Source of the DNA: Bdellovibrionales bacterium
GTDB taxonomy: Bacteria > Bdellovibrionota > UBA1018 > CAIMNF01
Length of the DNA stretch: 38,309 bases
Direction of reading: 5' to 3'
Assembly: GCA_018969905.1 (NCBI GenBank)
Contig: JAGWXK010000013.1
Coordinates: 1 to 38,309 of the forward strand
Position numbers and translations under genes: made by a program. Under the pieces are notes generated by a model that ran no database searches, had not been told where the DNA came from, and saw only the letters and a list, made by a program, of their open reading frames with translations. Each line of letters starts with the position of its first letter. The first letter of the stretch is position 1. Below, piece after piece: positions 31,785 through 35,004 of the stretch.

Positions 31785-32210
31785 ATGAGAGCATATTCTT
31801 CAATGAAGGCGTTCCTTGGTTTTTTTGCTTTGAATTTCGCATTATCCTTCGTCTCCATCGCAGCTGACTCGAATGTTCTCGGAAGCAAGATGGAAAAGTG
31901 CGGTGACTCGCCGAAAACGGGATTTTATCGGGATGGGTTTTGCCTAACCGGTCCTGAGGATCATGGCACTCATGTGGCCTGTGCGACGGTCACAAAAGAG
32001 TTTCTCGAGTTCACGAAGAGCAAAGGAAATGACCTGATCACACCGGCGCCTGAGTGGAACTTTCCAGGGCTTAAGCCTGGCGACAAGTGGTGCCTGTGCG
32101 CGCTCCGATGGCGGGAGGCGATGAAGGCCGGATTGGCTCCGAAGCTTGATCTAAAGGCCACGCACTCGAAGATATTGAAATATGCACCCCTGAAAGAATT
32201 GAAGGACTAA
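31785..32210 (+). CDS. Secreted DUF2237 protein
   Basis: A second DUF2237 protein, with the same motifs as the gene at 12875: KCGDSPKTGFYRDGFC, HVACATVTKEFLEFTKSKGN, APEWNFPGLKPGDKWCLCA and ATHSKILKYAPLKELK. It differs by an N-terminal signal peptide (MKAFLGFFALNFALSFVSIAADS; ATGs at 31785 and 31803 both give it), so it should be periplasmic or lipid-linked outside. The first Cys pair (GCC in the other copy) is GFC here. No clear ribosome binding site. It starts 66 bases from the divergent methyltransferase and is followed 2 bases later by a CPXCG protein. Confidence 0.85.
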   Translation: MRAYSSMKAFLGFFALNFALSFVSIAADSNVLGSKMEKCGDSPKTGFYRDGFCLTGPEDHGTHVACATVTKEFLEFTKSKGNDLITPAPEWNFPGLKPGDKWCLCALRWREAMKAGLAPKLDLKATHSKILKYAPLKELKD

Positions 32211-32212
32211 AG

Positions 32213-32395
32213 ATGGAAACGAATTTCAGGGTTCAATGCCCTTATTGCTGGGAAGAGATCTGGATGGAGTTTTTCCCTGAGGATGGCGAGCAGCAGGAAA
32301 GCATCACCGATTGCGAGGTCTGCTGCAATCCGATTCTGTATGTGGTGTCCTTTAGCGGCAGGCGGGGCCGGGTCAGAGCCGAGAAGGCGCAGTGA
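32213..32395 (+). CDS. CPXCG-type cysteine-rich small protein
   Basis: The 60-residue product has CPYC at about residues 9-12 and a CEVCC cluster at about residues 34-38, with an ITDCEVCCNPI pattern typical of the CPXCG family (PF14255-like), probably a zinc ribbon. The usual Gly after the first CPxC is Trp here. Function is unknown. It begins two bases after the DUF2237 stop, so the two are likely translationally coupled. After it, 33 bases remain before the long inverted repeat. Confidence 0.8.
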   Translation: METNFRVQCPYCWEEIWMEFFPEDGEQQESITDCEVCCNPILYVVSFSGRRGRVRAEKAQ

Positions 32396-32428
32396 TTGAG
32401 GGGGGGCGCCAAGCCTGATTTTTACTTT

Positions 32429-32618
32429 CTGTCCCTGAAGGATGGGCATGGCAGAGGTGAGTGGTCTGGAGTTCCTTGGCTTAATTTGATTTTGGCCGAC
32501 TCTCGCGAGGCCGGATTGACGAAAGCGAGGCCGCAGGAGGCGGCTCGGAGGCCAAAACCAAATTAAGCCAAGGACATCCCTGTCAGCCGCATGATCCATG
32601 CCCATCCTTCAGGGACAG
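32429..32618. repeat. 190-bp nested inverted repeat, possible structured RNA or MITE
   Basis: Two symmetric 69-base arms: 32429-32497 and 32550-32618. The outer 23 bases (32429-32451 with 32596-32618) are perfect complements. The inner 24 (32474-32497 with 32550-32573) have a single mismatch. Between them the 22-base segments (32452-32473, 32574-32595) have diverged but keep equal length. The 52-base loop contains a repeated GCGAGGCCG and a small GCCGC/GCGGC hairpin (32530-32544). It lies between the converging CPXCG gene and parB. No T-run follows either arm. Confidence 0.85.
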
Positions 32619-32624
32619 TTTGCA

Positions 32625-32659
32625 AACAAAAACCCCCGAAGTCACAGACCCCGGGGGTT
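32625..32659 (-). terminator. Terminator of parAB
   Basis: On the minus strand an 8-bp stem, AACCCCCG (template 32652-32659) pairing with 32631-32638, is followed by a T-rich tract (TTTTTGTTTG). It lies 27 bases past the parB stop. A standard rho-independent terminator. Confidence 0.85.
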
Positions 32660-32686
32660 CGTCATGTTTTTGATGTGTTTTGAGTC

Positions 32687-33619
32687 TTACTTCAGGCCCG
32701 CAAGCGTCTTTTCTACCGCCTCAGTAAGCTTGTAGAGCTCTTCGCGCATGGCCTCAAGTCGTGCCTTTCCTTCGCCGGCCTTCCAGGTAAAGCCCGGGAT
32801 TTTCACTTTTTTCGGAGTGACTGCAAAGGTGAAGGCTTTCGGACCCGCGGACTCGGTCTTGTTGGTCTTTAGGACCTTGCCCTTGGCCATGAGCGCCAAT
32901 TCGCCTTCGTCCTCGTTTGAGGCTTTTGCGATGATCGCCATGTGTTCTTCCACGGGCGCATTCAAAAGAGTGCGAAGGAGCGAGCGGTTTTTCAGGTTCT
33001 TGCTCTGAAGCATCTCTTTGGTCTCGGCAGGCAAGCGGGTGAACCCGATGCACTCGGTGATGCGGGACTTCTTCTTTCCGAATGCAGTCGCAATCGCTTC
33101 ATGGCTGGTATAAGCGCCTGCGGTAAGAAGAGAGTTGTAGCCTTCGCCTTCTTCAATTGGGTGGAGGTCTACGCGATCGAGGTTCTCGCGGAGTGCGATC
33201 TCATGAACTGCCTTGTCGGTCGAATTGATCACACGTGCCGGAATCCGCTCAAGACCTGCAAGTTTGGAGGCGCGTAAACGGCGCTCCCCTGCGATCACCT
33301 TGTAACGATCTCCATCTTGAACCACCAGGATCGGCTGAAGGACGCCGTGTTCCTTGATGGAGTGGGAAAGTGCTGCGATTTCTTCGTCATCAAAATGCGT
33401 ACGAACCTGAAGTTCGGATGCGTCCACCTTTTCAACGGGAACGAAGTTCACGAGGAAGGTGGTGAGGCCCTTCAGTCCACTGTGGGTGTTGTCGGCGCTT
33501 ACCCGTGCAGTCGAATAGAGTTGCTTCAAATATCCGCTTCCTTGGCGGGTTTTTGCCTCTTTTTTTGAATCCTTTGTTTCTTTTGTCTCTTTGGTATCTT
33601 TGATTTCTTTGTTTTCCAT
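32687..33619 (-). CDS. parB: ParB-like DNA-binding partition protein
   Basis: The 310-residue protein has the ParB/Spo0J CTPase-nuclease domain: LQVRTHFDDEEIAALSHSI, QPILVV, the GERR box in VIAGERRLRASKLAGLERIP, and RENLDRVDLHPIEEGEGYN. A helix-turn-helix follows (SHEAIATAFGKKKSRITECIG). The start of the protein is a low-complexity, charged stretch (KETKETKDSKK). ParB binds a centromere-like site, spreads as a CTP-driven clamp and is moved by ParA. Its partner parA lies 15 bases upstream, and its start has GGAGG. The putative binding array is upstream of parA (34774-35000). The HTH region is closer to plasmid or secondary-type ParBs than to Spo0J; that is impression, not a search result. Confidence 0.92.
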   Translation of the reverse strand: MENKEIKDTKETKETKDSKKEAKTRQGSGYLKQLYSTARVSADNTHSGLKGLTTFLVNFVPVEKVDASELQVRTHFDDEEIAALSHSIKEHGVLQPILVVQDGDRYKVIAGERRLRASKLAGLERIPARVINSTDKAVHEIALRENLDRVDLHPIEEGEGYNSLLTAGAYTSHEAIATAFGKKKSRITECIGFTRLPAETKEMLQSKNLKNRSLLRTLLNAPVEEHMAIIAKASNEDEGELALMAKGKVLKTNKTESAGPKAFTFAVTPKKVKIPGFTWKAGEGKARLEAMREELYKLTEAVEKTLAGLK

Positions 33620-34693: not shown

Positions 34694-34773
34694 TGATGCC
34701 TCCTTGATCTGTCTGAACAAGTGTATTCGGAATGCGTCAAAGTACAAACAAAAACTCAACAAAAATAATTGAT

Positions 34774-35000
34774 CGGTCGCCGTGGCGACCGGTGCGAAAA
34801 CGTGCGAAGGGTTGATTTTGATCGGTCGCCGCGGCGACCGACACGTACTGGAGCGGGTTGGTTTTGGATTCTTCGATCGCCACGGCGACCGGCGGAGGCT
34901 GGTTTGGAGTTGGTCTCTGCGTATCAATTCAATCCGGTCGCCGTGGCGACCGCTTCGTTTTGAGTCAGTATTGAGTTTCAATCGGTCGCCGTGGCGACCA
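34774..35000. repeat. Array of five 18-bp GC-rich palindromes (parS-like or operator)
   Basis: Five copies of CGGTCGCC-NN-GGCGACCG occur at 34774-34791, 34823-34840, 34874-34891, 34935-34952 and 34983-35000. The centre is GT, GC, AC, GT, GT. Copy 2 is a perfect 20-bp palindrome (34822-34841). Copy 3 has CGATCGCC for the left arm, and copy 5 ends in A. Most copies are preceded by AT. Starts are 49, 51, 61 and 48 bases apart, near five helix turns. The spacers (30-43 bases) are unrelated. It sits between the ABC permease stop and the parA start. The motif differs from the canonical bacterial parS (TGTTTCACGTGAAACA). Confidence 0.95.
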
Positions 35001-35004
35001 AAAC

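Follow-up and report, generated by a model that had tools for sequence, protein, structure and literature searches.

The window, i.e., the whole 38,309-nucleotide stretch of DNA analysed here, raises the question of what kind of entity a long inverted repeat lying between two converging genes represents, and how its arms have stayed complementary. A preliminary description had seen in it a 190-bp symmetric inverted repeat, fitting either a MITE-like element or a structured RNA. The repeat itself is real: its two 69-nt arms (32429-32497 and 32550-32618), 80% complementary to each other, enclose a 52-nt spacer, and its folding energy is -115.1 kcal/mol, where shuffled sequences lie at -66.2 +/- 4.6 kcal/mol (z -10.7; 0 of 200 shuffles equal it), so that it is not a product of chance. 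The outer 23 bp are perfectly paired as described, whereas the inner segment, likewise taken to be perfect, pairs at 24 of 25 positions with one mismatch; the diverged middles between them, about 21 nt per side, are largely unpaired, and the loop folds into two small hairpins, in keeping with its description as structured. A better placement for the boundaries of the element is about 32427/32429 on the left and 32620 on the right. Its features are as follows (G000 denotes the genome of origin, G002 and G009 are genomes of the same genus, and G039 is from a different family of the same order):

32427..32620, no strand assigned: whole element, a probable MITE-type hairpin of ~192-194 bp (inverted arms; G002 site empty; same-ended ortholog in G009)
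32429..32451, plus strand: left outer arm, putative relic of an IS1-like (IS-b type) terminal inverted repeat, TIR (17/25 to the IS-b TIR; complements the right arm perfectly)
32452..32472, no strand assigned: left middle, ~21 nt, largely unpaired (fold)
32473..32497, plus strand: inner stem 5' arm (aligned copies, fold)
32498..32549, plus strand: conserved core (36 invariant columns in 16/16 aligned copies, core plus edges; models R1 and R2)
32502..32529, plus strand: core hairpin P2, CTCGC/GCGAG type stem (fold; covariation over 52 copies)
32530..32544, plus strand: core hairpin P3, GCCGC-AGGAG-GCGGC (fold; covariation over 52 copies)
32550..32574, plus strand: inner stem 3' arm (aligned copies, fold)
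32575..32595, no strand assigned: right middle, ~21 nt, largely unpaired (fold)
32596..32620, minus strand: right outer arm, putative terminal inverted repeat relic (19/25 to the IS-b TIR)

A dispersed hairpin family with a common core

The window repeat belongs to a set of about two dozen related copies dispersed in its genome, which is that of a freshwater, Bdellovibrio-like bacterium. Querying that genome with the 190 bp by BLAST gave 22 matches, a count that includes the element itself twice (forward and reverse), and nearly all are centred on the loop. Among 16 aligned copies the invariant columns fall in the core and its edges, the stem sequence is variable, and 24 of 40 predicted pairs have changed on both sides. 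Model R1, at E<=0.001, recovered 23 copies in G000, 44 in G002, 20 in G009 and 28 in G039, so the element is not single-copy; any match at all was seen in 14 of 40 genomes. Model R2 was built on 52 diverse copies, in whose alignment 97.4% of 2038 cells are paired and 37 of 40 pairs have changed on both sides, pairing in shuffles and slid-partner controls being far below this; both core hairpins, P2 and P3, covary over the same copies. When R2 was run on 368 genomes of the phylum, with only ten candidates scored in each, 19 had matches at E<=1e-6. Of a total of 127 model hits, 111 were used, after 11 opposite-strand shadows and five weak or partial hits (L023, L071, L072, L107 and L044:2954) had been dropped.

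The common plan is a ~52-nt core of two small hairpins and conserved unpaired purines, comprising P2 with its GA/GAAA internal loop, P3 and a GGAG closing element, which sits on a long stem that is variable yet paired. At ten further loci, eleven copies combine this core plan with stems that are unrelated, and the plan recurs without these IS1-like termini in other genera of the phylum. An exact core pattern, run against 84,980 named species genomes, hit 37 stretches; every one of them belongs to a MAG, under the title Bdellovibrionales, Oligoflexia or Bacteriovorax stolpii and, in a single instance, Proteobacteria. Rfam gave 0 matches in the window at gathering thresholds, at which the core matches nothing, and three weak matches at E<=5 over 7 loci, none plausible as the element's family; nor did a literature search, with subscription papers outside its coverage, find anything on this hairpin family. 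A phage origin was rejected, two core patterns having given 0 matches in viral_contigs. GGA in a loop is the target motif of CsrA; the GGA loops had thus suggested a CsrA sponge, an idea that was abandoned because CGA takes the place of GGA in some P3 loops.

The family also includes some elaborate variants: L017:6279-6449 and L054:10184-10354 feature ~58 extra nt that fold within P2. The G039 hairpins (L073-L087) reach ~340 nt with arms up to ~150 bp, many of them near -200 kcal/mol per 411-412-nt stretch (best -249), and display a second conserved motif, GACGTCCTCGCC/GGCTGCGGAATGTC, located in an internal loop.

IS1-like termini, mobility and genomic setting

The element was mobile in the past. 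Copies such as L013:5040-5240 and L037:2710-2910 are 91% identical over the element (~200 bp) between unrelated flanks, and, when subfamilies are aligned together with their flanks, similarity ends at AACTGG...CCAGTT. On searching for this type of terminus with up to 3 mismatches, we found that a 25-bp terminal repeat, AACTGGCCYCTTTGARTGGGCAYGG, bounds three ~1026-bp insertion sequences, two in G000 and one in G009, each encoding a 303-aa transposase. All 22 of the 22 aligned transposases match the NCBIfam IS1 model (NF033558; best E 1.2e-13), with member 1 scoring 25.2 bits, below the curated cut-off of 100, and no Pfam match among the four tested. Homologs of these insertion sequences carry their own related termini, of which the IS-b type of L166/L168 (AACTGCCCCCGAAGATTGGGTAYGC) is nearest to the window element: 17 + 19 of 25 positions agree at the two ends of the latter, and 19 + 20 of 25 in its G009 ortholog, L059. 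Among 84 hairpins of G000, G002 and G009, TIRs of this group scored above shuffles at both ends in 38 (the window element included), at one end in 11 and at none in 35, and they were absent from 16 of 16 hairpins in G039 and 10 of 10 elsewhere; thus, the link to insertion sequences covers part of the family only. Full-length IS-a transposases at >=75% identity number 7 copies, confined to G000, G002 and G009 among the 40 genomes, and the single IS1-like homolog of G039 has a different terminus, so there is no terminus link for the hairpins of that genome.

The window element is short, its type measuring ~194-198 bp, and has no transposase gene inside it. Its site is empty in G002, where the flanks align on both sides, and G009 carries the element. 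These shared termini, together with unrelated sites and an empty site in a relative, point to a MITE-type mobile element, as one half of the preliminary description had it, and we consider it very probable that it is a MITE of an IS1-like insertion sequence; the particular transposase that acts upon it would be the one suggested by the shared termini. The target duplications expected of such an element offered weaker signals: 4 of 37 termini-bounded hairpins reach at least 7 of 9 bases, against 3.1% of shuffled pairings, none was seen at the window site, and perfect 9-bp direct repeats flank only L178 and L179, which are related insertion sequences. The notion that the core resides inside insertion sequences was discarded, as R2 found no core in the 50 IS/terminus loci L133-L182 (its lone match, L222, being a hairpin locus). 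Movement as a REP-type element by a Y1 (RAYT) transposase could draw on the one Y1_Tnp gene in each of G000, G002 and G009, but 30 of the 40 genomes have such genes and the majority of these 30 contain few hairpins or none, so that the two are not co-distributed, and the termini match IS1-like elements instead, which makes this scarcely credible. A retron-like reverse transcriptase was likewise rejected, such enzymes being found in 23 of 40 genomes and none in the hairpin-rich G009.

Certain other loci are of note. In L136, L138 and L139, two termini face each other at a distance of 195-205 bp with no core to be recognised between them; these may be hairpins that have decayed. Relative to L009:1760 and L056:3782, the corresponding G002 place (L040) lacks the element and retains GCCGCAGGA plus a stretch resembling the 3' arm, which could be read either as a remnant or as a host-derived arm. 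At L048:2724-3092 a hairpin has gone in next to the end of an older hairpin that G009 also has, with a near-duplicate flank.

As to the setting, of the converging genes in the preliminary description, the plus strand carries one for a DUF2237 protein together with a 60-aa ORF, and the minus strand carries the gene for ParB. Across 100 elements in four genomes, 29 lay inside ORFs (by automated scoring, many of these ORFs being short and likely spurious) and 3 at contig edges; the remaining 68 scored sites comprise 35 tandem, 28 convergent and 5 divergent ones, and at tandem sites the core strand shows no preference (15 same, 20 opposite). The excess of convergent over divergent sites might be taken to favor a bidirectional terminator or a stabiliser of the mRNA ends of converging genes. 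However, the window element is without a T-run, as had been recognised, and a proper intrinsic terminator adjoins it on the minus strand (32660-32630), outside and separate from it; moreover, G002 retains that terminator without having the element, the sites are mostly tandem, and promoter avoidance fits and explains the convergent bias. Hence, a terminator is improbable. No promoter-like site was found in 31900-33000, and the paired T-tracts that had been remarked upon as flanking the repeat were judged to be trivial.

A further feature of this region is a set of five sites (four exact) of the palindrome GGTCGCCNNGGCGACC at 34773-35004 in the window, clustered just upstream of parA. Exact copies form a single cluster per genome (4 in G000, 5 in G002 and 3 in G009), which adjoins parAB in G000 and G002. 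The palindrome is unlike canonical parS, and the cluster is a candidate ParB-binding centromere.

Copying between arms and inversion of the core

The window element differs from its ortholog L059 by three changes, all in the left terminus, with the other ~170 nt identical, and each of the three equals the complement of the right arm. Because the IS-b terminus and the copy L010 carry the L059 states, those of the window are derived, and the linked changes are most simply explained by a single tract having been copied across from the other arm. The core, for its part, has been inverted in place between collinear flanks in the orthologous pairs L012/L060, L017/L066 and L050/L065. At two loci the outer arms involve a neighboring tRNA gene: the left arm of L227 is an inverted copy, 88% complementary, of 25 nt within a tRNA-Arg gene, and the outer arm of L088 extends by 10 nt into an adjacent tRNA-Ser gene. 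One study names homogenised arms and inverted spacers as the signature of template switching (PMC8604942), and another extends the process to RNA hairpins (PMC8794818). With one clear case of arm copying and the inversions of the core, we can say with good confidence that template switching contributes to the matching of the arms.

Template switching being able to match arms, covariation of the stem is by itself no proof of selection on an RNA. This bears directly on the view that these hairpins constitute an established family of genes for structured non-coding RNA, whose mobility is past and incidental and whose long stem covaries since it is selected as RNA. The near-complete pairing and doubly changed pairs of the 52-copy alignment are what it predicts, as are the covarying core hairpins, the constraint on the core in orthologs and the G-T excess in the inner stems (both presented below), and the presence of the core plan in distant genera without IS termini. 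Against this, copies at unrelated sites bear IS termini, arm copying can yield covariation without RNA selection, and the core, which flips in place between orthologs, has no preferred strand; these last two points also speak against a strand-fixed cis-acting RNA. Accordingly, we see such an RNA-gene family as a serious but unlikely contender.

Constraint on the core and comparison with known systems

Orthologous copies indicate that something retains the core, which is conserved well past its neighbors. Eight G000-G009 pairs show identities of 410/436 in the core, 372/411 in the inner stem, 259/301 in the middle, 341/398 in the outer arms and 3421/3893 in the flanks, and eight G002-G009 pairs of 401/433, 247/304, 162/227, 238/317 and 2902/3574, respectively (i.e., 93% for the core versus 71% for the unpaired middle), with the caveat that these sets include L093/L057, which are maybe not the same element, and the decayed L105/L069. 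Could the core simply be needed for transposition, in a selfish MITE without host function whose arms are matched purely by template switching? The mobility, multiple copies, arm copying and flips all agree with this, and ectopic conversion between copies could imitate core conservation. However, copies that lack termini (L015/L058/L037 and L022/L067/L096) still have cores that are 94-100% conserved next to middles that have mostly diverged, L022 and its orthologs retain their own variant core, contrary to conversion, and the core is found with unrelated outer arms. A purely selfish element is, hence, rather doubtful, and we favor, as fairly likely, the proposal that the core is retained by selection, at old sites too, and is functional at these sites.

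What that function might be is hinted at by the inner stems, where G-T mismatches exceed A-C ones on the core strand (80 versus 44 cells, P 0.0016; 67 versus 41 in unique contexts, P = 0.016), as counted in the 91 of 111 elements that were usable, copies which are related to one another; a looser count of the outer arms yielded no G-T excess (182 versus 189). Modest as this signal is, it hints at a folded single strand. The structured-RNA option of the preliminary description thereby gains support alongside the mobile one, in view of the covariation within the core and of the constraint that its orthologous copies show. We infer that the core works as RNA, with a folded RNA as our best guess for its role, although an RNA-level function can be proposed only tentatively. 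It is conceivable, with comparable reserve, that Bdellovibrionota have in this core a new structured module that is portable: a fold of ~52 nt acting as a single strand, placed on a 25-150 bp stem of free sequence that is renewed by template switching, and riding on the MITEs of several IS1-like elements in one genus and on unrelated hairpins elsewhere.

Taken as a whole, the probable explanation is a non-autonomous MITE-type element with template-switched arms and a selected core. Its outer arms would serve as terminal inverted repeats that the transposase of a resident IS1-like insertion sequence recognises in trans, with insertion typically near gene ends; within the hairpin the DNA polymerase would switch template, keeping the arms complementary and occasionally inverting the core; and selection would retain the core, whose strand would fold, most likely as RNA from read-through of neighboring genes, to be bound by a protein. 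The mobility is ordinary; what is unusual is the invertible, constrained and widely shared core. Such a family would let structural covariation be followed as it arises both from selection and from template switching on DNA, in the form of copied arms and inverted cores, and so allows a test of whether covariation proves an RNA, as it is usually taken to do. It also adds a conserved structured core absent from Rfam, present in some members of a phylum that is noted for its predators.

BOX, RUP and ERIC are dispersed intergenic elements with a stable fold that are presumed to derive from insertion sequences. The present family resembles them in all these respects and differs in sequence and in the organisms concerned; we know of no hypervariable covarying stem with an invertible core in any of them. 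The associated transposases parallel the IS1 family in their uniform match to NF033558, and 9-bp direct repeats flank two relatives, L178 and L179; they depart from it in that the member shown falls far under the curated cut-off and the four tested lack a Pfam match. MITEAba12 is a MITE mobilised by a resident insertion sequence, ISAba12 (PMC6382973), and, like it, the window element is short, gene-less and multi-copy, with inverted termini common to a co-resident insertion sequence. Here, however, the whole element folds into a single long hairpin around a conserved, structured core, the core plan is also found with unrelated termini, and the target duplications are weak. Finally, arm homogenisation and spacer inversion are shared with template-switch homogenised inverted repeats (PMC8604942, PMC8794818); those are single mutation events in genes, whereas here the process appears to operate across a dispersed repeat family.
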